Part shown: piece by piece, positions 1 through 9,060 of the stretch
Numbering within the stretch: the stretch's first letter is position 1
How the letters are laid out: every line of letters begins with the position of its first letter
Source of the DNA: a bacterium
GTDB lineage: Bacteria > Planctomycetota > J058 > JAJDCP01
Assembly (NCBI GenBank): GCA_030428695.1
Contig: JAUIEM010000400.1
Span: 1 to 9,060 of the forward strand
Reading direction: 5' to 3'
Length of the DNA: 9,060 nucleotides
Position numbers and translations under genes: made by a program
Notes under the pieces: generated by a model
The model's input: the letters and a program-made list of their open reading frames with translations, nothing else
What the model was told of the DNA's origin: nothing
Database searches by the model: none

Positions 1-1
1 A

Positions 2-226
2 GCCGACGCCGCCGCCGGAGCCGACGGAGCCGCGGGCGACGCCGCGGCGGGCGCTGACGGAGCTGCGGGTGCCGCATCGGGAGCCGCGGGTGCCGCCGGA
101 GCGGACGGCGCAGCGGGCGACGCCGGCGCTGCAGCGGCCGCGGCCGCTGGTGCCGGGGCCGGAACGGCAGGAGCCGGAGCCGCGGGCATCGCCGCGGGCG
201 CGGGAACCGGGGCCGCCGCGACCAGC
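2..226 (+). repeat. Gly-X-Y-like low-complexity coding repeat
   Basis: In the frame of the partial protein this stretch encodes mostly GAA, GAD and GDA triplets, with glycine at every third position over several runs, broken by a few phase slips. At DNA level it is a degenerate array of gccggagccg- and gcgggcgac-like words. No proline is present in these triplets, unlike typical collagen-like proteins, so a collagen fold is uncertain and a flexible Ala/Gly linker is equally possible. Confidence 0.6.
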
Positions 227-1615
227 GAGAGCAAGGACGCGGCCGGAACGTCCGACGGCTCGAAGTCCGGCAGCAGCCTGGGCACGGCGGCGAAGGTCAG
301 CCTGGCCGGCGCGGTCGGCATGGCCGGCGCCTCGATCATGGGCGGCGGAGCGGCCGCCGGGGCGACCGCGGGCGGTGCCGGGGCGGGCGGTGGCGTACCG
401 CTTACCCGTCCCCAGGCCGAGATCGCGACCGGGCGCTACATCCAGAAGCGCGTGAAGGAAGAGCTCGGCTTCGACCCGGCCGACGAGCTGCTGCGTCCGA
501 GCGGGGACGCCGAGCAGGCGAAGCTCGCCGCGCAGCTGCGCAAGGAGTCCAAGGGCAAGGTCGGCATCGACCTGGTCGAGACGACGGCTCCCGGGCCCTT
601 CCTCAGCGAGGAGCAGCGCCAGGAGCTGGCCCAGCAGGTCGTCGAGCAGACCGAGGCCGAGCTCAGCTTCGAGCTGCCCGAGGTCATGCAGGACAACGAG
701 CAGCCGCAGCATCCGATCGCGACGCAGATCTGCAACGAGGTCAAGCGCCAGGCCGGCATCAAGATGCCGGACGAGCTCGGCGTCACGCTCGCTCCGTCAC
801 GCGCTGGTGGAACCTCGACGACGGCGGGGGCCGCCGAGAGCGAGACGACCGACGAGGCAACGACGACGGACGATACCGCGAAGTCGGACTCCACAGCCAA
901 GACCGACCCGGAGACCGGCGAGGCCGACGTCCCGTCCGGCGACGCGCTGGTCGACTTCGCCGCGATGGAGGAAGCCCAGTCCGCCGCCGACGCCGGCGCG
1001 AGCGTTGAGGACGCGACCGCGGACGATGCGGGCACGGACGACGCGAGCGCCAGCGCCACGGACGACGCGAGCGCCAGCGCCACGGACGAGGCCAAGCCCA
1101 CAGAGGTCAGCACCCTCAGCCCCGAAGAGCTCGAGAAGAGCGATCGCATCGCCTACGACGCCCGTCAGACCGGCCTGGAGTGGGAAGCCGAGGCCAAGGC
1201 CGCGGCGGAAGCCGAGAAGGATGGCGGCGAGAAGGCAGAGGCGGACGAGGGCGGAGAGACGGAATCCGCGCCGGACGAGACGGCGGGAAGCAGCGAAGGG
1301 GACGACGTCGTCGAGCCGACCCCCGCGGTCGAAGAGCTCTCGCCCGAGGAGCAGGCCGCGCGCGACGAAGAGGATGGGAGCGCGCCCGCGGAAGACACGG
1401 AGCCGTCCGAGGACAGCGCAGCCAGCGGTGAAGCGGGAGAAGACAAGCCCGCCGCGGACGAAGCGGACGACAAACCCGTCGCGTCCCCGACCGAGACCGC
1501 GTCGAAGATCGTCGAAGATGCCGTCGCGGTGCTCCAGGAGCTCGGCTTCTCGCCCGCGGCCGATCCCGACGCGCTGAAGAAGGATGCGGACGCCGCCCCG
1601 AAGACGGACGCCTGA
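2..1615 (+). CDS. Partial Ala/Gly/Asp-rich protein with long acidic C-terminus, function unknown
   Basis: The reading frame is open from the left edge, so the true start lies outside; 537 residues are visible before the TGA. An ATG at 320 is in frame but sits inside continuous coding-like sequence, so I do not take it as the start. Visible residues 1-75 are Gly-Ala-Ala/Gly-Ala-Asp triplets. Residues about 95-130 form a small-residue hydrophobic stretch (SLAGAVGMAGASIMGGG) that might be a membrane or membrane-like segment. Residues about 135-265 look globular and charged (VKEELGFDPADEL, HPIATQICNEVKRQAG). The rest is a disordered acidic tail rich in Asp, Glu, Ala, Ser and Thr with LSPEE motifs, ending in a predicted helix (IVEDAVAVLQELGFSP) that resembles the earlier ELGFDPADEL segment. 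I do not recognise the family. An envelope or surface role is possible but unproven. No clear terminator follows. Confidence 0.7.
   Translation, partial: ADAAAGADGAAGDAAAGADGAAGAASGAAGAAGADGAAGDAGAAAAAAAGAGAGTAGAGAAGIAAGAGTGAAATSESKDAAGTSDGSKSGSSLGTAAKVSLAGAVGMAGASIMGGGAAAGATAGGAGAGGGVPLTRPQAEIATGRYIQKRVKEELGFDPADELLRPSGDAEQAKLAAQLRKESKGKVGIDLVETTAPGPFLSEEQRQELAQQVVEQTEAELSFELPEVMQDNEQPQHPIATQICNEVKRQAGIKMPDELGVTLAPSRAGGTSTTAGAAESETTDEATTTDDTAKSDSTAKTDPETGEADVPSGDALVDFAAMEEAQSAADAGASVEDATADDAGTDDASASATDDASASATDEAKPTEVSTLSPEELEKSDRIAYDARQTGLEWEAEAKAAAEAEKDGGEKAEADEGGETESAPDETAGSSEGDDVVEPTPAVEELSPEEQAARDEEDGSAPAEDTEPSEDSAASGEAGEDKPAADEADDKPVASPTETASKIVEDAVAVLQELGFSPAADPDALKKDADAAPKTDA
1037..1084 (+). 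repeat. Two perfect 24-bp tandem units within coding sequence
   Basis: Two identical 24-base units (1037-1060 and 1061-1084) each encode DDASASAT within the acidic tail. The following bases gacga begin a third, broken unit. The unit is a multiple of three, so copy-number change would keep the frame. This is probably slippage or recent duplication in a disordered tail. Confidence 0.85.
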
Positions 1616-1678
1616 TCCGGGCACCTCAGCCCACGGCGCGGTGATCCTTCCGGCAACGCCAGGACCTTCCTCCCGATC

Positions 1679-1694
1679 GACGGGCGGGGGTAAA
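1679..1694 (-). repeat. Truncated REP-like element
   Basis: gacgggcgggggtaaa matches the first half of the full element at 1741 and then diverges, so only one stem arm and the loop start remain. Orientation is given relative to the copy at 1840, taken as plus. Confidence 0.5.
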
Positions 1695-1740
1695 GAGGCT
1701 GTCTCAAGGAACCCGTTGACGCACGTCCCCACGCCTGCGG

Positions 1741-1772
1741 CGGGCGGGGGTAAACCCCGCCCCTACATTGGA
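1741..1772 (-). repeat. REP-like palindromic element, copy 1
   Basis: A perfect 8-bp stem gggcgggg (1742-1749) with ccccgccc (1755-1762) closes a 5-base loop gtaaa and is followed by ctacattgga. It is a near-exact inverse of the element at 1840-1872. The two copies differ inside the stem at a pair of positions that still pair (C-G here, A-T there). Confidence 0.8.
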
Positions 1773-1839
1773 TTCCGACGCAGTCTACGGGTGATCTCGG
1801 ACGTGCGGCATGCGTGCCTTGCTTGGGCTGATGGTCCTA

Positions 1840-1872
1840 TCCGAATGTAGGGGAGGGGTTTACCCCCTCCCG
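1840..1872 (+). repeat. REP-like palindromic element, copy 2
   Basis: tccgaatgtag leads into a perfect 8-bp stem gggagggg (1851-1858) with cccctccc (1864-1871) and the 5-base loop tttac. It is inverted relative to copy 1, with 67 bases between them, so the pair could also form one long cruciform or hairpin, as in paired REP arrangements. Confidence 0.8.
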
Positions 1873-2050
1873 TCGTAGTTCGGGAACCGACCTCTCGCGA
1901 GACAGAACGGACGCTGAGGTCAGTCACAACCTGGTATCGTGTACCTGCGCAGGAACGGAGCGGCGTTCGGGGATCTGTGGACGCTCTTCCAGAGGGCTGA
2001 CCACCTATCTCGCGAGCGACTTCTGCGCAGCGCAACCGTCCCACCCCAAA

Positions 2051-2055
2051 GGGAG
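2051..2055 (+). promoter_or_regulatory. Ribosome binding site deciding the LRR gene start
   Basis: gggag lies 6 bases before the ATG at 2062. The in-frame candidate at 1939 adds 41 residues that resemble no domain, and the recognisable repeat-companion domain begins immediately after the ATG at 2062. Confidence 0.7.
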
Positions 2056-2061
2056 CTTCCG

Positions 2062-3435
2062 ATGCAGCACGAAGACCTTCTCGAGGCCGTGGCCGCCGCG
2101 CCGGACGACGATGCCCCCCGCCTGCGCTATGCGGACCTCCTGCGCGAGCGCGGAGATCCCCGCGGGGAGTTCATCCGCCTGCAGTGTGAGCGGGCGCGCT
2201 TGCCGGACGACGATCCGCGCGCGAGCGCTCTGGAGCAGCGGGCGTCCGCGCTCCTTGAGGAGAACCGGCGAACCTGGCTCGGAGCGACGCTGAGCGAGGC
2301 CCTCGGGCGCGATGTCTGGAGGCGCGGCTTCCTGGTCGCGCTCGTCCTCGACTTCGGTGCCGGGGACGACGTCTTCTCCGCGCTCACCGAGCACGTCTGT
2401 CTGCGCCAGCTCGCTGCCGAAGGCGGAGAGCTCACGGCCGCGGGGCTCGCGGCCCTGGCGAAGCTGCCGCTACGTGTCCTCGACCTCTCCGGCGCACAGA
2501 TCGACGACGCGGAGCTCGTCCACCTGCAGGGTCTGACCTCACTCCATACCCTCAACCTGACCCTGGCGACCGTCGGAGACGCGGGGCTGGCGGCGCTGGC
2601 GGGGCTGCCCTCACTGCGGCAGCTGCAGCTGGCCGGGACGCAGATCAGCGACGACGGATTGCCCTCCCTCGCGCGGCTGCACTCCCTGCAGACCCTGGAT
2701 CTCAGCGAGGTCTGCGTCAGCGGCGAGGGGCTCTCCGTGCTCGCGGAGCTGACGTCCCTGACCGTCCTCCTCCTGGAAGGTGACGGCGAGCTCGGCGACG
2801 ACGGCCTGGTCCCGCTGGGGAAGCTGCCCGCGCTCCGCCGCCTCCAGCTCACCAACCAGGAGATCACCGACGCCGGCCTGCTCCACCTCGCGGAGCTGAC
2901 CGGGCTGACCGAGCTCGGTCTCGCGCGCAACCAGCTCAGCGACGCCGGCCTCGTCCACCTGGGGAAGCTCTCCCGGCTGGAGAGCCTGAACCTCTCCGGC
3001 AACGAGGTGACGGACGCGGGCCTGGCTCACCTGGCCCCGTTCAGCTCCCTGACCGCGCTCGACCTCTCCAATACCCAGGTCGGCGACGCGGGCCTGGCGC
3101 ATCTGCAGTCCTGGCCGGCCTTGCGCACCCTCAACCTGTCCTTCACCGCGGTCAGCGACGCCGGGCTGGCCGCGATCGCCGCGCTGCAGAACCTGACCGA
3201 GCTGCACCTCAACGGCGCCCGCATCCGCGGTCCCGGGCTGGCCGCCCTGGCGGAGCTCGGCACGTTGGAGCGGCTGTTCCTCGCCGGCAACCGGATCGAC
3301 GGGGAGGGGGTCGCGCACTTGCGGCGTCTGACCCACCTGCGCCGCCTGTTCATCAATCCCGCCGACGTCGGCGAGACCGCCTGGGAAGAGCTGCAGGACA
3401 GCCTCCGCATCGGCAGCGGACACGTCGTCCGGTGA
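2062..3435 (+). CDS. TIGR02996-domain leucine-rich-repeat protein
   Basis: A 457-residue protein. Residues about 4-45 (LRYADLLRERGDPRGEFIRLQ) match the repeat-companion domain TIGR02996 in wording. That domain is known mainly from Planctomycetota and Myxococcota, where it precedes repeats of several kinds. Residues 114-448 are about 14 leucine-rich repeats of 24 residues, consensus L..L.LS.T.V.DAGLAHLA.L..; this GLAHL style resembles the ribonuclease-inhibitor-like or internalin-like bacterial class. Only the first, one 25-residue and the last repeats deviate. There is no signal peptide or membrane segment from the chosen start, so a cytoplasmic protein-binding role is likely; the partner is unknown. 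The disrupted lipoprotein gene starts 57 bases downstream on the same strand, so the two could have been co-transcribed. Confidence 0.85.
   Translation: MQHEDLLEAVAAAPDDDAPRLRYADLLRERGDPRGEFIRLQCERARLPDDDPRASALEQRASALLEENRRTWLGATLSEALGRDVWRRGFLVALVLDFGAGDDVFSALTEHVCLRQLAAEGGELTAAGLAALAKLPLRVLDLSGAQIDDAELVHLQGLTSLHTLNLTLATVGDAGLAALAGLPSLRQLQLAGTQISDDGLPSLARLHSLQTLDLSEVCVSGEGLSVLAELTSLTVLLLEGDGELGDDGLVPLGKLPALRRLQLTNQEITDAGLLHLAELTGLTELGLARNQLSDAGLVHLGKLSRLESLNLSGNEVTDAGLAHLAPFSSLTALDLSNTQVGDAGLAHLQSWPALRTLNLSFTAVSDAGLAAIAALQNLTELHLNGARIRGPGLAALAELGTLERLFLAGNRIDGEGVAHLRRLTHLRRLFINPADVGETAWEELQDSLRIGSGHVVR
2401..3405 (+). repeat. Leucine-rich-repeat-coding array, 72-bp period
   Basis: Fourteen consecutive units of about 72 bases encode the 24-residue repeats. 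Units near the middle (gacgccggcctg and gacgcgggcctg, encoding DAGL) are most alike, which suggests growth by internal duplication. Confidence 0.8.
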
Positions 3436-3478
3436 CGGTCCGGTGACGGCCGGGCGCTTCGATCGCTCCGAGGAAACC

Positions 3479-3484
3479 AGGAGG
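3479..3484 (+). promoter_or_regulatory. Ribosome binding site before a CTG start
   Basis: A full aggagg lies 8 bases before ctg at 3493. No ATG, GTG or TTG in frame is better placed: the GTG at 3508 would leave only ten residues before the lipobox cysteine and no basic residue. The site therefore favours a rare CTG start, unless the original start was altered by mutation. Confidence 0.5.
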
Positions 3485-3492
3485 ACGCAGCG

Positions 3493-3678
3493 CTGGCCGC
3501 ACGGTCGGTGCTCCTGTGCCTGCTTCTCGCCGCGGGGTGCAGCAGCACGCGCCACGCAGTCTCCGGGGAGCGGCCGCTGCCGGCGACGCCCGAGGAGCTG
3601 ATCGCCGAGCTCGCTGCCCACGACGGCCCGTTGCCCTGGGTGACCGATCTGATGTTCGCGTCGGGGCAAGCACCGTGA
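3493..3678 (+). pseudogene. Lipoprotein gene, N-terminal fragment cut by repeat copy A
   Basis: From the CTG at 3493 this encodes 61 residues. AARSVLLCLLLAAGCSS is a lipoprotein signal: an arginine, a hydrophobic core and a lipobox LAAGC with the lipidated cysteine at residue 16. The mature part (LPATPEELIAELAAHDGPLP) looks genuine up to about base 3658. The last residues and the TGA at 3676 come from the start of the dispersed repeat. Coding-like sequence resumes at 4062, beyond a duplicate of the bases at the break. I infer a single lipoprotein gene interrupted by insertion. The mature protein would sit on a membrane facing the periplasm; its function is unknown. Alternatively, it is a genuine very short lipoprotein. 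Confidence 0.55.
3646..3658 (+). repeat. Left direct repeat flanking repeat copy A
   Basis: gatctgatgttcg here and gatcggatgttcg at 4049-4061 agree at 12 of 13 positions, with the last 8 (gatgttcg) perfect. They sit at the two edges of copy A, so they look like a target-site duplication. Confidence 0.55.
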
Positions 3679-4019
3679 CGTACACGGGTCCCCGGGGAAC
3701 GAGGTGTTTGTTGGCTCGTCGATGCCCCCCTGTGAGTCCCCCGGTGGGGGACCACCGTGTAGGGAGCAATACTGTCGGAGGTTGGGCGACCATCGCCCTG
3801 ATTGCGCCACCTCCTCGCTCTCCTCTCACCTCCGTGCCCTCGTACCTCGGGCCCGATCGGCCGCTTCGCTGTGTTCCTCGGAGAAGAGACCTGCGGTGGT
3901 GTCGCAAACAGGGCTGCCACCCAACTCCTCTTGTGTAGCCTCCAGCCCTTGACCCTCACTCCTCGTTCCTCGGAGCGGGGGTCGGCGGGAACGCGTGCCA
4001 AGGCCGTGCGACAATCCGA
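3655..4019 (+). repeat. Dispersed structured repeat, copy A
   Basis: This stretch aligns with 6297-6619 (copy B). From caagcaccg to the Cs and Ts near 3825 there are about 11 differences in 160 bases, and from cggagaagag near 3879 to gtgccaag at 4002 about 7 in 124. Copy A carries about 45 extra bases between these blocks, consistent with one small indel plus a deletion in B between two cctcgg words. Shared features are a closing stem ggggca (3663-3668)/tgcccc (3723-3728), a hairpin gtccccc/gggggac (3736-3752), a two-tier hairpin ggaggt..gggcga/tcgccc..acctcc (3777-3814) and a stem near 3951-3983. The strand is arbitrary. If mobile, the inserted unit would run from 3659 to about 4048. I see no terminal inverted repeats. 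Confidence 0.8.
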
Positions 4020-4048
4020 CGCGACGCGCGCGGGGAATCGGAGTCGAA

Positions 4049-4061
4049 GATCGGATGTTCG
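4049..4061 (+). repeat. Right direct repeat flanking repeat copy A
   Basis: gatcggatgttcg is the partner of 3646-3658. The offset between the two is 403 bases, not a multiple of three, so the insertion also changes frame. Confidence 0.55.
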
Positions 4062-4326
4062 GCGGCGAAGCTCCCGCCGAGAGCCTGGCCTCCGCTCCGC
4101 GAACCGCGAGGCGGTCGACCTGATCGAGCAAAACCTCGGGAGCACGACCAGCCCCTCGTGCCACCCGCTGATCGCCGACACCCTCCGCACCTACTGGAGC
4201 CGGGGCGACGCCTCCTGTAACCAGAGGCTCTTCGACCACCTGCAGGCGGACCTCGAGGACGAGCGCTTTCCGGACCCCCAGGCAGCCGCACGCGTCCAAC
4301 TCTACTTCCCCGATGGCAGGCCCTAG
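4062..4326 (+). pseudogene. Lipoprotein gene, C-terminal fragment after repeat copy A
   Basis: Coding-like sequence ends at TAG 4324-4326 with NREAVDLIEQNL, HPLIADTLRTYW and QRLFDHLQADLEDERF, with G or C at most third codon positions. The fragment is in the frame of the N-terminal piece without removing the repeat. The bases just after the direct repeat read best in another frame (GGEAPAESLAS, from the ATG at 4055), which continues the N-terminal piece once the 403-base insert is removed. A second frame change near 4085-4105 would then be needed, so the gene looks broken twice. A GTG at 4006 could start a 106-residue ORF instead, but it lies within the repeat and has no good ribosome site. 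I do not recognise the protein family. Confidence 0.45.
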
Positions 4327-4338
4327 GAGGCTCCTGGG
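4321..4338 (+). terminator. Weak hairpin at the end of the lipoprotein remnant
   Basis: ccctagga and tcctggg pair with one bulged t around a ggc loop, overlapping the TAG stop. No T-tract follows, so termination is doubtful. Confidence 0.2.
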
Positions 4339-4377
4339 CCTTCACAACCGACGGCTGGAATCCTCCTCGCGCCGCGC

Positions 4378-4383
4378 TACGAT
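4378..4383 (+). promoter_or_regulatory. Possible -10 box for the Uma2 pair
   Basis: tacgat matches the -10 consensus at four of six bases, with a poor -35 candidate (ctggaa, 4355-4360) 17 bases upstream. It would place a start about 18-20 bases before the Uma2 ATG. Weak evidence. Confidence 0.15.
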
Positions 4384-4395
4384 GAGAGGGACACG

Positions 4396-4401
4396 AAGGA
4401 G
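4396..4401 (+). promoter_or_regulatory. Ribosome binding site deciding the first Uma2 start
   Basis: aaggag lies 7 bases before the ATG at 4409. The in-frame ATGs at 4313 and 4382 lack such a site, and the paralogue's similarity begins just after residue 9 from this start. Confidence 0.7.
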
Positions 4402-4408
4402 TCCCGCG

Positions 4409-5269
4409 ATGGCCCCGACCACGCACATCACCCGGCCGCCCCGCTGTCTGCGCGTCGTGCGCGAAGCTCCGCCCGCGCTGTGGAAGGCGCGGGTCGACTG
4501 GAGCTCCTGGTACCTGACCGATGAGGAAGACATGGGCGAGAGCCCACTGCAGACCGAGATCATCTGGCTCTTCCGCAGCATCCTCGCCGTGCTGATCGAG
4601 CAGCGGGACTGGCATGTGCATCTCTCGGCCGACCAGTTCTTCGGCTGGATGCGAAGCGAGCCCCTGGTCCGCGTCTCGCCGGATGTCTTCGTCGTCGAAG
4701 GCGGGCCGCCCACGCCGCTGCCGAAGAGCTACCAGACCTGGCGGCCGGGTCATCGCGCGCCGTTGTTCGCGCTCGAGGTCGTCTCGGACGAGTGGCGCAA
4801 GGACTACGACCTCAACCCGCAGAAGTACGCCGAGCTCGGTGTGCGCGAGCTGGCCATCTACGATCCGCATCCGAGCCCCCGCACCCCGGAACGGGTGACC
4901 CTCCAGGTCTATCAGGCGCTGGAGGACGGAACCTTCGCGCGGGTGTACGCTGGCCCGGGACCGTTCCGATCGTCGACGCTGGAGGCCTATCTGGTCCCGA
5001 CGGGCTCCGGCGACCGCGCCCGTCTGCGCCTCGCCCGCGACGCGGACGGCAACGACCTGCATCCGTCGGAAGCGGAGCGGTCCGCCTCCCGCGCCCACGC
5101 GCTCGAGTCCGAGCGGGAGAAGCGCGCCGAGGCCGAGCGGAAGCGCGCCGAGGCCGAGCGGAAGCGCGCCGAGGCCGAACGCGCGCTCCGCGCCGAGAGA
5201 GCCGAGCGCGCCCGGCTCGAAGCAGAGCTGAACGAGCTCCGGGCGCGCCGCGACCGCGACGGAAGCTGA
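4409..5269 (+). CDS. Uma2 family (DUF820) nuclease-fold protein with C-terminal coiled coil
   Basis: A 286-residue protein. Residues about 50-195 match the Uma2 (DUF820) PD-(D/E)XK restriction-endonuclease-like fold: VSPDVFVVEGG (D92), PLFALEVVSDE (E123) and NPQKYAELGVRELAIYDP (K139), so all three metal and catalytic positions are present. Family members are abundant in cyanobacteria, Planctomycetota, Myxococcota and Chloroflexota; most have no proven function, although DNA cleavage or a role with mobile elements is often proposed. Residues about 221-282 are a charged Glu/Arg/Lys/Ala coiled coil that includes three heptads KRAEAER; it is absent from the paralogue downstream. The next gene starts after 47 bases, so co-transcription is likely. 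No signal peptide is visible, so the protein is probably cytoplasmic. Confidence 0.85.
   Translation: MAPTTHITRPPRCLRVVREAPPALWKARVDWSSWYLTDEEDMGESPLQTEIIWLFRSILAVLIEQRDWHVHLSADQFFGWMRSEPLVRVSPDVFVVEGGPPTPLPKSYQTWRPGHRAPLFALEVVSDEWRKDYDLNPQKYAELGVRELAIYDPHPSPRTPERVTLQVYQALEDGTFARVYAGPGPFRSSTLEAYLVPTGSGDRARLRLARDADGNDLHPSEAERSASRAHALESEREKRAEAERKRAEAERKRAEAERALRAERAERARLEAELNELRARRDRDGS
5120..5182 (+). repeat. Three 21-bp tandem units encoding coiled-coil heptads
   Basis: aagcgcgccgaggccgagcg(g) occurs at 5120-5140 and 5141-5161 identically, and at 5162-5182 with two changes near the end. Each unit encodes KRAEAER, exactly one heptad, so copy-number change would lengthen the coiled coil in register. 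Confidence 0.9.
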
Positions 5270-5316
5270 ACGAAGTCCAGAAGACATGCTCCCGGCATGG
5301 AGGGACGCCCCCGCCG

Positions 5317-5994
5317 ATGGAACCGACCCGGCCGCCCCGCTCCCTGCGCGTCCTGCGCGAGGCTCCGCCCGCTCTGTGGCAGGCGCGGGTGGATTGGAGC
5401 TCGTGGACCCTGAGCGACGCGGAGGCCAAGGCCCCGAGCCCCCTCCGCGAGGCGATCAGCCTGTCCTTGCGCAGCGCCATCGCGGGGCTGATCGAACAGC
5501 GGGGCGGGGGTCTCCACGTCGGCGGAAGGCAGCTCTTCGCCTGGATGCCGGACGAGCCCCTGGTTCGCGTCTGCCCGGACGTCTACCTGCTCGAAGGGGC
5601 GCCGCCCGCGTCCCTGCCGAAGGGCTACCAGACCTGGCGGCCGGACCACCGTCCGCCCCTCTTCGCCCTCGAGGTCGTCACCGACTGGCGCAGGGACTAC
5701 GAGCTTCTCCCTCAGAAGCACGCCGCGCTCGGCGTCCGCGAGCTCGTCATCGTCGATCCCGCTCCGGACACCCGCGAGCCGGCGCAGGTCCCGCTCCAGG
5801 TCTACCGGACGCTCGAGGACGGAGCCTTCGCCGAGGTCTACCACGGGCCGGGCCCCTGCCGTTCCTCCGCTCTCGACGCCTGGATCGTGCTGGCAGGGCA
5901 GGGCGCACAGACCCGCCTGCGCCTGGTCTCCGAAGTTGACGGCGGGGAGCCGGCGCGGAACGAAGCCGGGCAAGAGCGGGGAGGCGGCGCATGA
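5317..5994 (+). CDS. Second Uma2 family (DUF820) protein, paralogue of the preceding gene
   Basis: A 225-residue protein closely similar to the preceding one over its first 200 residues (shared PPALW.ARVDWSSW, SYQTWRP-like and LQVYR.LEDG.FA stretches), so a tandem duplication is clear. The nuclease-fold residues are kept: CPDVYLLEG (D88), LFALEVVTDW (E119) and LPQKHAALGVRELVIVDP (K134). The spacing from D to E is identical to the first copy, and one residue is missing between E and K. It lacks the coiled-coil tail and ends in a short Gly/Glu-rich tail. A ggaggg at 5299-5304 precedes the ATG by 12 bases, longer than usual. Its TGA overlaps the next gene's ATG (ATGA), which suggests coupled translation. 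Its substrate is unknown. Confidence 0.85.
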   Translation: MEPTRPPRSLRVLREAPPALWQARVDWSSWTLSDAEAKAPSPLREAISLSLRSAIAGLIEQRGGGLHVGGRQLFAWMPDEPLVRVCPDVYLLEGAPPASLPKGYQTWRPDHRPPLFALEVVTDWRRDYELLPQKHAALGVRELVIVDPAPDTREPAQVPLQVYRTLEDGAFAEVYHGPGPCRSSALDAWIVLAGQGAQTRLRLVSEVDGGEPARNEAGQERGGGA

Positions 5995-6282
5995 GTCAAC
6001 GCGACGGCCAGGACACGGAGTTCCACTGCGGTGACTGTTCCCGCAGGTACGTTCGCCCGTTCTCCGCGCTCGTCGCGATGCTGCGTCGCGGGCGCACGCA
6101 GTGCCAGTTCTGCGGGGGCGCCCGCGATCCGCGCCTACAATGCCGTGCGCGCGCTGTTCGGTCCCGGTGTCGAGGGGAGCGCCGCGAGCGTCGCGACGCC
6201 CAACGCCATCGCAAGCCGCCTGCGTGCGCTCGGCTGGGACGAACAGGAGGCCCGCACCGCGGCGGCGGTGCTGAAGCCCTGA
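5991..6282 (+). pseudogene. Small zinc-ribbon protein gene with a frameshift at G5
   Basis: The ATG overlaps the stop of the second Uma2 gene. The first frame encodes FHCGDCSRRYVRPF and RRGRTQCQFCG, two CxxC pairs (C13/C16 and C39/C42) typical of a small zinc ribbon. After a run of five G (6114-6118) this frame turns into Arg/Cys-rich nonsense. The +1 frame gives a natural continuation (APAIRAYNAVRALFGPG, ASRLRALGWDEQEA) ending in TGA at 6282. Removing one G gives a coherent 96-residue protein. The error could be in the assembly, a real inactivating mutation, or much less likely a programmed shift. The C-terminal part looks helical and may bind a partner. Translational coupling suggests it worked with the Uma2 proteins. 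Confidence 0.65.
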
Positions 6283-6460
6283 GTATCCAAACGCGTTTTG
6301 GCGTTCGGGCAAGCACCGTAACGCACACCGGTCCCCGGGGAACGAGGTGTTTGTTGGCTTGTTGATGCCCCCCCTGTGAGTCCCCCGGTGGGGGACCACC
6401 GTGTCGCGTGCAACACTGTCGGAGGTTGGGCGACCATCGCCCTGATTGCGCCACCTCCTC

Positions 6461-6493
6461 GATCTCCTCTCCTCGTACCTCGGAGAAGAGATC
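6461..6493. other. Stem-loop with TCGTACCTC loop in repeat copy B
   Basis: gatctcctctcc (6461-6472) pairs with ggagaagagatc (6482-6493) at 11 of 12 positions, around the 9-base loop tcgtacctc. In copy A the arms are partly retained but an extra 45 or so bases fill the loop. Confidence 0.6.
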
Positions 6494-6552
6494 TGCGGTG
6501 GTGTCGCAAACAGGGCTGCCGCCCAACTCCTCTTGTGTAGCCTGCAGCCCTT

Positions 6553-6585
6553 GACCCTCGCTCCTCGTGCCTCGGAGCGAGGGTC
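6553..6585. other. Stem-loop with TCGTGCCTC loop in repeat copy B
   Basis: gaccctcgctcc (6553-6564) pairs perfectly with ggagcgagggtc (6574-6585) over 12 bp, around the loop tcgtgcctc. In copy A (3951-3983) the same stem has one A-C mismatch and one G-T pair. Confidence 0.7.
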
Positions 6586-6620
6586 GGCGGGAACGTGTGC
6601 CAAGCTGGTCAGAATCCGAT

Positions 6621-6656
6621 CGTAGGGGCGGGGTCTACCCGGTCTACCCCCGCCCG
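6621..6656 (+). repeat. REP-like palindromic element, copy 3
   Basis: The stem gggcgggg (6626-6633) pairs with ccccgccc (6648-6655). The loop is 14 bases instead of 5 because ggtctaccc is tandemly duplicated (6632-6640 and 6641-6649). It has the same orientation as the copy at 1840 and the same lead-in (tccga, then gtag). It lies directly after repeat copy B. Confidence 0.75.
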
Positions 6657-6659
6657 CGA

Positions 6660-6676
6660 GACGGGATGAACCCGTC
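6660..6676 (-). terminator. Small hairpin downstream of the molybdenum-enzyme operon
   Basis: gacggg and cccgtc form a perfect 6-bp stem with an atgaa loop, 64 bases beyond the stop of the beta-subunit gene. There is no T-tract on either strand, so its role as terminator between convergent transcripts is uncertain. Confidence 0.25.
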
Positions 6677-6740
6677 GCAAGTGCCAAGATCGGCCTGCTT
6701 CGGAGGCTCTCACCGATCCGCTATGCAATTCACGCGGCGC

Positions 6741-7712
6741 TCAGCCCGTGGCGAGCCGCAGCAGCAGGCGCTCGGTCAGCACGCCGACCATCTCCTTGCG
6801 GTACTGCGGGGAGAGCCAGACGTTCCGGTAGGGGGTGGTCTTGTCCTTGACCTGGCCCGCGATCGCGGCGGCGGCCTCGGCGGTCAGGGGCTGGCCGGCG
6901 AAGGTGTCGGTGACCGCGTCCATCACCAGCGGCGTGGTGTTGGTCGCGTTGACGACCACGGTCAGCTGCGCGATGCTGCCGTCGTCGGCCAGGCGCAGGC
7001 CCGCCGCGACGCCGGCCAGGGGGAAGTCGATCGTGTCGCGGATGCGCAGCTTCTCGTAGCCGGCGCGCAGGCTGGGCGCGTCGTCGGGGAAGCGCACGTC
7101 GGTCAGGATCTCGTTCTTCTTCTTGACGAAGCGGGCGATGCCGTCGTGGCGGAAGAAGTCCCGGAGCGGCACCCGCCGCCGTCCGTCGGGTCCCGCGAGG
7201 CCGACGTCCGCCCCGTAGCACATCAGCACGGGGGCGGTGTCGCCGGAGTAGGTCGCGTAGCAGATCTCCTTCTGCGGCACGACCAGGCACACGTCGCCGT
7301 CGGCCTTGAGGCAGTAGCCCTTGGCTTCGCGCCAGAAGTGGGACTGGTTGAAGTAGTAGCAGCGCGTGTCGAGCAGCAGGTTCCCGCCGAGGGTCGCGTG
7401 GTTGCGGATCAGCGGCGAGGCGACGGTGGCCGCGGCCTCGACCAGCCCCGGGTAGCGCTCGGCGACCACCGGGTGCTCGCCGAGGGCGCTGAGGCTGACC
7501 AGGGCGCCGATCTGCGAGCCCGAGATCGAGGTCAGCTCGTCGATGCCGCCGAGGAAGATCACGTGCTTGCGCGGATTGAGCCGCTGCTTGTAGTTCGGCA
7601 GGAGGTCGGTGCCGCCGGCGAGGAAGTCGAAGTCCCCGCCGACGCTCGCGGCGAGGTCGAGGGCCTCGTCGACCGTCTGCGGCTCGTGCAGCTCGAAGGA
7701 GGGAAGGATCAT
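6741..7712 (-). CDS. Molybdenum hydroxylase FAD subunit, 4-hydroxybenzoyl-CoA reductase beta type
   Basis: A 323-residue member of the xanthine oxidase family medium subunit. FAD-binding motifs are LAGGTDLLP (31-39) and IRNHATLGGNLLLDTR (102-117), followed by a typical C-terminal flavoprotein domain. Between them lies an insertion with four cysteines, C118, C134, C142 and C151. This spacing (15, 7 and 8 residues between) equals that recalled for the Thauera 4-hydroxybenzoyl-CoA reductase beta subunit (122, 138, 146, 155), where they bind an extra [4Fe-4S] cluster that helps deliver low-potential electrons. That enzyme removes the phenolic hydroxyl from 4-hydroxybenzoyl-CoA to give benzoyl-CoA in anaerobic aromatic degradation. 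The substrate here could be a different aromatic. The gene follows the alpha subunit after 36 bases, with gagga as ribosome site. I give no symbol because substrate identity is unproven. Confidence 0.88.
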   Translation of the reverse strand: MILPSFELHEPQTVDEALDLAASVGGDFDFLAGGTDLLPNYKQRLNPRKHVIFLGGIDELTSISGSQIGALVSLSALGEHPVVAERYPGLVEAAATVASPLIRNHATLGGNLLLDTRCYYFNQSHFWREAKGYCLKADGDVCLVVPQKEICYATYSGDTAPVLMCYGADVGLAGPDGRRRVPLRDFFRHDGIARFVKKKNEILTDVRFPDDAPSLRAGYEKLRIRDTIDFPLAGVAAGLRLADDGSIAQLTVVVNATNTTPLVMDAVTDTFAGQPLTAEAAAAIAGQVKDKTTPYRNVWLSPQYRKEMVGVLTERLLLRLATG

Positions 7713-7719
7713 CAGCTCG

Positions 7720-7724
7720 TCCTC
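7720..7724 (-). promoter_or_regulatory. Ribosome binding site of the beta subunit
   Basis: On the minus strand gagga lies 7 bases before the ATG at 7712, within the short gap after the alpha-subunit stop. Confidence 0.6.
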
Positions 7725-7748
7725 GGGAGGTTGCGCGGGATCACGGAA

Positions 7749-9059
7749 TCAGGCGTCGGACTGGGCCAACTCGGGCTGGCGCTGCTCGCGCTTCTTCTTC
7801 TGCTGCATCGCCTTCCAGACGATGTCGGGCGTCATCGGCAGCTCGCGCATCCGGACCCCGACCGCGTCGTGGATCGCGTTGGCGACGGCGGGCAGGATCG
7901 GCAGCAGTGGCCCTTCCCCGCACTCCTTGGCGCCGTAGGGGCCTTCGGGGTCGTTGGTCTCGACCAGGATCACCTCGACGTCCGGCATCTGCATCGGGCT
8001 CGGGGTGCGGTAGTCGAGGAGGTTGGCGTTGAGGATGCCGGCCTTGTTGTAGCGGAAGTCCTCCATCAGGGCCTGGCCGAGGCCCATGTGGATCGAGCCC
8101 TCGATCTGTCCCTCGACCGACAGCGGGTTGAGCGCCTTGCCGCAGTCGTGGGCCGCCCAGACCTTCTCGACCTGGACGTAGCCGGTGTCGGGGTCGACGA
8201 CGACCTCGGTGATGAAGGCCGAGAAGCTGTAGGTCGGCGCGAGGCCGGCCGCGGCGCCCTTGTGGCTGCCGCCCATCTTCGGCGGGCCCTGGTAGGCGCC
8301 CTTGGCGATCAGCGCCCCGTTCTCGGCGAGGGCCTCCTCGAGGGCGTCGGCGAAGCTGATCCGGATATCCGGATTCGGCGCGAACACGAGCTCCTCCCGG
8401 TCGAGCACGAAGCCTTCCCAGGGGTAGCCGGTCTTCTTCCCTGCCGCCCGCACCAGCTTGTCCTTGATCTTCAGGGCCGCCCGCCGCGCGGCGTTGCCCG
8501 CCATGAAGGTCACGCGCGAGCTGTAGCTGCCGAGGTCGATCGGCGCGGTGTCGCTGTTCCCGCTGTAGACCCGGATCCGCCCGAGGTCGCAGCGCAGCAC
8601 CTCGGCGACGCACTGGGCGAGCATCGTGTCCGAGCCCTGGCCGATCTCGGCCGCCATGCTGTGGACCGTGATGCCGCCGTCCATGTCGATCTTGATGTGG
8701 ACGGTCGACTGCGGCAGCTTCGTCCAGTGGATCGGCAGGGCGCTGCCCGAGATGTAGAAGCCGCAAGCGACGCCGATCCCGCGCCCGAACGGCATCTTCC
8801 CGTGCTTGTCGACCCAGCCGGAGGCGGCGCGCGCCCGCTCGAGGCACTCGACGACGCCGTTGGAGGTGATGCGGAACTCGTTGATCGTCTTGGTGAAGCT
8901 CGGCAGGGCGTTGTCGATGCGGAACTGCACCGGATCCTGCTTCGACCGCTCGCACAGCTCGTCGATCAGCGTCTCGTAGGCGAAGCGCGTGTTGACCGCG
9001 CCGTGCCCGCGCATCGCCCCGCAGGGCGGCTTGTTGCTGTAGACCCGGCGGCAGCGAAA
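7749..9059 (-). CDS. Molybdopterin-binding alpha subunit of the same hydroxylase, C-terminal part
   Basis: The frame is open through the right edge, so the gene begins outside; 436 residues are visible, rather more than half of the usual roughly 770. The ATG at 9014 lies inside the conserved motif PPCGAMRGHG (residues 11-20), so it is not the start. Other molybdenum-cofactor motifs are EIGQGSDT (138-145), DCGKALNP with GQIEGSIHMGLGQAL (from 305), and GAKECGEGPLLP (376-387), whose GEG glutamate (about 382) corresponds to the catalytic glutamate of the xanthine oxidase family. GAKE.GEG wording is close to 4-hydroxybenzoyl-CoA reductase alpha subunits. It would bind the molybdenum cofactor and the substrate in the cytoplasm and pair with the downstream beta subunit. 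The 2Fe-2S gamma subunit is not visible. Confidence 0.88.
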   Translation of the reverse strand, partial: FRCRRVYSNKPPCGAMRGHGAVNTRFAYETLIDELCERSKQDPVQFRIDNALPSFTKTINEFRITSNGVVECLERARAASGWVDKHGKMPFGRGIGVACGFYISGSALPIHWTKLPQSTVHIKIDMDGGITVHSMAAEIGQGSDTMLAQCVAEVLRCDLGRIRVYSGNSDTAPIDLGSYSSRVTFMAGNAARRAALKIKDKLVRAAGKKTGYPWEGFVLDREELVFAPNPDIRISFADALEEALAENGALIAKGAYQGPPKMGGSHKGAAAGLAPTYSFSAFITEVVVDPDTGYVQVEKVWAAHDCGKALNPLSVEGQIEGSIHMGLGQALMEDFRYNKAGILNANLLDYRTPSPMQMPDVEVILVETNDPEGPYGAKECGEGPLLPILPAVANAIHDAVGVRMRELPMTPDIVWKAMQQKKKREQRQPELAQSDA

Positions 9060-9060
9060 G

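Follow-up and report, generated by a model that had tools for sequence, protein, structure and literature searches.

Clustering across whole genomes has revealed families of stem-loop-containing (SLS) repeats in bacteria (Cozzuto et al. 2008, PMC2267715). Here, we describe a repeat present in two near-identical copies (copy 1 and copy 2) on contig JAUIEM010000400.1, of which positions 1 to 9,060 were analysed (hereafter the window). Like the SLS families, it is repeated, apparently non-coding and, in copy 2, of high folding aptitude; unlike these genome-wide clusters, it is known from two copies in 9 kb. We favour reading it as a lineage-restricted, non-coding, non-autonomous, stem-loop-forming repeat, similar to miniature inverted-repeat transposable elements (MITEs), while regarding belief and doubt as about evenly balanced.

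The MITE-like small mobile repeats RU-1/ERIC, RU-2, RU-3 and Correia (Delihas 2007, PMC2229807) resemble the present repeat in being small, apparently non-autonomous and hairpin-forming, and in lying in or next to genes. RU-1, RU-2 and RU-3, with lengths of 127, 168 and 103 bp (PMC2759123), differ from it in that the present repeat is longer (~300-340 bp) and comes without clear inverted ends, target duplication or parent transposase. Repetitive extragenic palindromes (REPs), in turn, measure 20-40 bp (PMC3733652). Look-alikes of the GTAG-tagged kind occur in the same window, one of them starting at 6622, directly beside the end of the sequence that copy 2 shares with copy 1, but the repeat is roughly ten times longer than a REP and comprises several different hairpins. 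A multi-hairpin layout over a few hundred nucleotides is also typical of HEARO and other large structured bacterial RNAs, although an Rfam scan at E ≤ 1 returned no model for the repeat. In layout, the repeat is similar to known small palindromic repeats, yet we do not file it as a MITE, because the features that define this class were either not found or gave no clear outcome.

The two copies are direct (same-orientation) repeats. Their local alignment contains 309 identities in 388 positions, with 45 gap positions, at an E value of 1e-91, so their likeness is not due to chance. Ungapped blocks of 130 nt (94% identity), 103 nt (95%) and, on the left, 98 nt (83%, including flanking sequence) join parts of 3633-4002 with parts of 6276-6604. 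Core against core, 20 substitutions fall on 297 aligned positions (~93% identity), in line with the original prediction, made from the sequence alone, of two copies about 93-94% identical. The cores further differ by a 42-nt block near the tip of a two-tier hairpin, present in copy 1 only, and by one nucleotide in a run of C; beyond them, the copies are offset by indels of 2 nt on the right and, at the leftmost limit of the alignment, of 1 nt. The edges initially proposed (3655 and 4019/6619) proved approximate: strong identity spans from GGGCAAGCACCG (3664/6307) to GTGCCAAG (4002/6604) and is followed by a short AATCCGA, the only clearly common sequence on the right of the core. The flanks differ, with other genes and DNA beside each copy.

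Secondary structure prediction indicated a folding aptitude that is above random for copy 2 and weakly so for copy 1. Predicted folding energies of copy 2 (6297-6619) were -158.4 kcal/mol (plus strand, z -4.9) and -169.0 kcal/mol (minus strand, z -7.7), and on neither strand did any of 100 shuffles do as well. For copy 1 (3655-4019), the minus strand reached z -2.66 (0 of 100 shuffles as good), and its exact core gave, as a rough estimate from 25 shuffles, z -1.0 and -3.2 (plus/minus). When the window was folded in 59 tiles of 300 nt (25 shuffles each, hence rough), tile 6301-6600 over copy 2 had the lowest value on each strand (z -6.7/-6.3, plus/minus). Other low plus-strand tiles were 451-750 (z -5.4), a stretch that contains a 33-nt inverted repeat, and 8401-8700 (z -3.9). 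The GTCCCCC/GGGGGAC, two-tier and 3′ hairpins named in the original prediction are present in both copies (Table 1); the plus-strand minimum-energy fold of copy 1, however, pairs its two-tier region differently. The closing stem proposed alongside them is weak: copy 2 has the 6-bp pairing GCACAC/GTGTGC, whereas the same columns of copy 1 hold one G-U and one broken pair.

Several lines of evidence lead us to favour a MITE-like repeat: the ~93% identical copies in different flanks, the fold of copy 2, the lack of protein-level constraint and of a protein family (see below), and the GTAG-tagged palindromes nearby. In addition, copy 1 directly follows a lipoprotein-like frame (third-position GC 0.92) that begins at 3508 and meets its stop within the repeat, at 3676-3678, while to the right of copy 1 lies another frame of coding appearance, ending at 4326; as a guess, this layout looks as if the repeat had split one gene. 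The palindromes are three in number (1749-1766, 1847-1864 and 6622-6639), the first two forming an inverted doublet with 35-nt arms that are 89% complementary; in their wider extent they span 1742-1766, 1847-1871 and 6622-6655. With three of them in 9 kb, the genome probably carries small palindromic repeats. On this reading, a transposase or some other trans-acting machinery, or else recombination, would have copied the element within its genome, after which the copies would have diverged slowly; its folded (single-stranded) form may be what the mobilising machinery recognises. That the repeat is mobile, as originally proposed, we infer from nothing beyond the two near-identical copies in different flanks; copies besides these two may exist.

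A number of observations weigh against this reading. Neither copy shows a clear target-site duplication. Copy 1 is flanked by an 8-bp direct repeat, GATGTTCG, at 3651 and 4054, the right one ~50 bases past the core, but chance alone gives an 8-bp flanking repeat with a frequency of 0.078 (about 8%) when flanks of 40 x 60 nt are paired, and more often in flanks as wide as those searched here; in the flanks of copy 2, no direct repeat of at least 7 bp was found. On inspection by eye, the copies share no perfect terminal inverted repeat; in copy 1 the outer edges read GCGTCGG/CCGACGC, a pairing that copy 2, ending in AATCCGATCG, does not preserve. Among those window frames scanned with Pfam and NCBIfam (part of the 48 listed open reading frames), none encoded a transposase. 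The left end of the repeat is not sharp, as 19 of 31 positions running leftwards from the core edge, the edge itself included, are identical (P ~5e-4 against random pairs of window segments, with the edge picked after looking). On its plus strand, copy 1 folded only weakly better than shuffled sequence (z -0.68; 25 of 100 shuffles as good), and the tiles covering it were unremarkable, with values near 0. The known copies number two, both in the window. Finally, the reading of a gene split by copy 1 is unsupported: the two gene halves used as query found no homologue at E ≤ 10 (213 candidates), nor did a query that joined the downstream frame to a portion of copy 1 (E ≤ 1, 244 candidates).

The alternative that survives best, albeit as a rather unlikely one, is that the repeat is the remnant of a longer element (an insertion-sequence end, an intron or a piece of a retroelement) or of an old segmental duplication; in either case, just this stretch would have been preserved twice. 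The fuzzy edges, with left flanks that are still partly identical, would fit such an origin. So would the two adjacent Uma2-family paralogues between the copies (4408-5269 and 5304-5994; 70-80% alike in aligned DNA blocks), which suggest that the locus has been duplicated before; the first of the two has a charged, repetitive tail. However, the order of parts (repeat, gene tail, Uma2, Uma2, small gene, repeat) is not that of a tandem unit, and neither the Rfam scan of the repeat nor the Pfam and PHROGs searches with the frames tested returned a match.

We consider it less likely still that the repeat is a structured non-coding RNA, or an RNA-bearing element, of an undescribed family, that is, a folded transcript in which CCTCGTNCC loops perhaps pair with an upstream GGAACGAGG. 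The strong predicted fold of copy 2, particularly on the minus strand, is in its favour, as is the complementarity between loops and upstream segment: each copy has two occurrences of CCTCGTNCC, at or close to the tips of the two-tier and 3′ hairpins, and the sequence complements GGAACGAGG at 9 of 9 positions in the 3′ hairpin of copy 1 and at 8 of 9 in its other occurrences. Yet a distant 9-nt complement also turned up in 114 of 500 shuffled cores, which makes this pairing weak and a guess; as a candidate feature, loop kissing was rejected as indistinguishable from chance. A minus-strand RNA, favoured by the whole-copy folds, was likewise dropped because the two strands of copy 2 scored much alike in tiled folding, so that no strand preference is established.

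Comparison of the copies gave the fold no clear support from covariation, nor did it count the fold out. In a projection test, the structure predicted from one copy was imposed on the other, and the outcome was compared with random placement of the substitutions. For plus/copy 1, plus/copy 2, minus/copy 1 and minus/copy 2 (the same order applies throughout), 9, 5, 6 and 6 pairs were broken as compared to random-placement means of 8.1, 9.3, 8.9 and 8.9 (P = 0.75, 0.04, 0.13 and 0.13), with 23, 1, 13 and 0 gap-affected pairs set aside. Three of the four projections were thus indistinguishable from random substitution, the exception being the plus strand projected from copy 2. Compensatory pairs numbered 0, 1, 0 and 1 (P ≥ 0.17 against random placement). 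The alifold structure derived from both copies looks better than the projections, but it was selected to suit both and takes in flank columns: compensatory pairs number 2 (minus strand) and 3 (plus strand), none of its pairs is broken, and the substitutions lie mostly outside pairs, with 6 of 31 falling in the 188 paired of 322 columns on the minus strand and 12 of 31 in the 208 paired of 322 on the plus strand. With only two sequences, the comparison has low power and cannot decide the fold. Because both strands fold and the copies lack clear covariation, the original designation as an RNA-bearing repeat is not supported; an RNA function of the repeat may be possible. No promoter- or terminator-like sites were found at 3400-6800, which says little, as chance alone would supply no more than 0.1 and 1.1, respectively, and the kind of promoter looked for may be the wrong one here.

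A bolder version would combine mobility with structure. The copies would be undescribed mobile structured elements of an unsampled high-GC lineage, in which two CCTCGTNCC-loop hairpins kiss the upstream GGAACGAGG to give a compact fold of RNA or single-stranded DNA that a mobilising enzyme recognises; we regard this as quite improbable.

As to coding potential, all plus-strand frames have stops at aligned codons in both copies. On the minus strand, one frame is open through copies 1 and 2 and is kept by the 42-nt indel, so the earlier statement that no reading frame is shared was inexact, even though this frame does not look coding: of its 24 changed codons, 7 are synonymous and 17 non-synonymous, much like the 5-10 synonymous and 13-18 non-synonymous changes in the other five frames. 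In no frame did the codon changes show a sign of protein-level constraint. Five repeat frames (three on the minus strand, one on the plus strand of copy 1 and one running on from copy 1) gave no Pfam match at E ≤ 1, the first four gave none in PHROGs, and a search of the protein collection with the minus-strand frame of copy 2 returned nothing at E ≤ 1 (9 candidates). The repeat is apparently non-coding, as judged from these sequence comparisons, and the idea of a diverged protein-coding gene present twice, rejected on codon changes, homologue search, Pfam and PHROGs alike, is highly implausible despite the shared open frame.

Searches for relatives of the repeat returned nothing convincing from phages, plasmids, the word scans of viral contigs and species genomes, or 697 sampled genomes, although diverged copies would escape them all and they included no positive control and were not directed at the window's own phylum. 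Neither phage nor plasmid DNA matched it. One 18-mer scanned in the species-genome collection gave 8 stretches, aligning over 18-21 nt at the word and otherwise in pieces with E ≥ 0.17. Seven exact-word scans of viral contigs yielded 1, 0, 0, 0, 4, 0 and 0 stretches, the first being a 21-nt match; the four align with copy 2 over 17-18 nt and with copy 1 over 49 nt (73%, E 0.04). We judge all exact-word matches to be chance. Copy 2 was also used to search whole genomes at E ≤ 0.001 per genome, which gave matches in 4 out of 398 from one phylum and in none out of 299 from a second; the two phyla had been sampled without being chosen as the window's own, and at most two candidates were scored per listed genome. 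The pieces in the four genomes measured 25-64 bases (best E 4.6e-7 per genome), three of them within query positions 106-200 and two of those overlapping. Aligning both copies with their flanks to 3-kb loci of these genomes revealed no element around the pieces, and we judge these matches to be chance or compositional. The lack of any Rfam match in the repeat agrees with the original impression that no named family has this layout; across the window, the Rfam scan gave a single match at E ≤ 1 (E 0.7), at 8672-8716 inside another gene, and a scan for tRNA and tmRNA found none. A literature search gave general work on bacterial stem-loop repeats, and we claim the absence of the repeat from print no further than that.

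Table 1. Coordinates of the two copies and of their predicted hairpins in the window.
Feature	Position	Strand	Remarks
Copy 1 core	3664..4002	.	339 bp; similarity weaker on the left, from ~3633; on the right, a short AATCCGA that ends at 4019
Copy 2 core	6307..6604	.	298 bp; followed by a short AATCCGA that ends at 6619
Copy 1 short hairpin GTCCCCC/GGGGGAC	3736..3752	.	From the sequence; predicted in the folds of both strands of copy 1
Copy 2 short hairpin GTCCCCC/GGGGGAC	6380..6396	.	From the sequence; predicted in the folds of both strands of copy 2
Copy 1 two-tier hairpin	3777..3928	.	Outer arms GGAGGTTGGGC / ACCCAACTCC; contains CCTCGTACC at 3838-3846
42-bp block of copy 1, missing from copy 2	~3831-3872 (alignment-dependent)	.	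Near the tip of the two-tier hairpin
Copy 2 two-tier hairpin	6421..6530	.	Outer arms GGAGGTTGGGC / GCCCAACTCC; tip loop with CCTCGTACC at 6471-6479
Copy 1 3′ hairpin	3951..3983	.	CCTCGTTCC (3961-3969) is the exact complement of GGAACGAGG (3696-3704)
Copy 2 3′ hairpin GACCCTCGCTCC/GGAGCGAGGGTC	6553..6585	.	CCTCGTGCC (6563-6571) complements GGAACGAGG (6339-6347) at 8/9

Elsewhere in the window, an open frame at 2-1615 is alanine-rich with a repetitive start and had no Pfam or NCBIfam match. It is followed at 2062-3435 by a gene encoding a TIGR02996 domain and then leucine-rich repeats; a search for TIGR02996 was negative in 3 genomes and in 14 controls (0/3 and 0/14), and a plasmid search with the protein returned two records with weak, partial matches. 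The small gene left of copy 2 (5991-6282) has a weak zinc-ribbon match (E 0.034, below the cut-off), and its C-terminal part seems to be continued in another frame, suggesting a frameshift or a sequencing error. Other neighbours encode subunits nearest to the 4-hydroxybenzoyl-CoA reductase alpha and beta models, below the curated cut-offs, with the alpha subunit cut by the window end.

As it stands, the repeat is one more orphan hairpin-rich sequence beside the many lineage-specific ones described in bacteria. If more copies exist and covary, it would be a new structured element from a lineage so far unsampled and offer a handle on the mobile DNA of that lineage.

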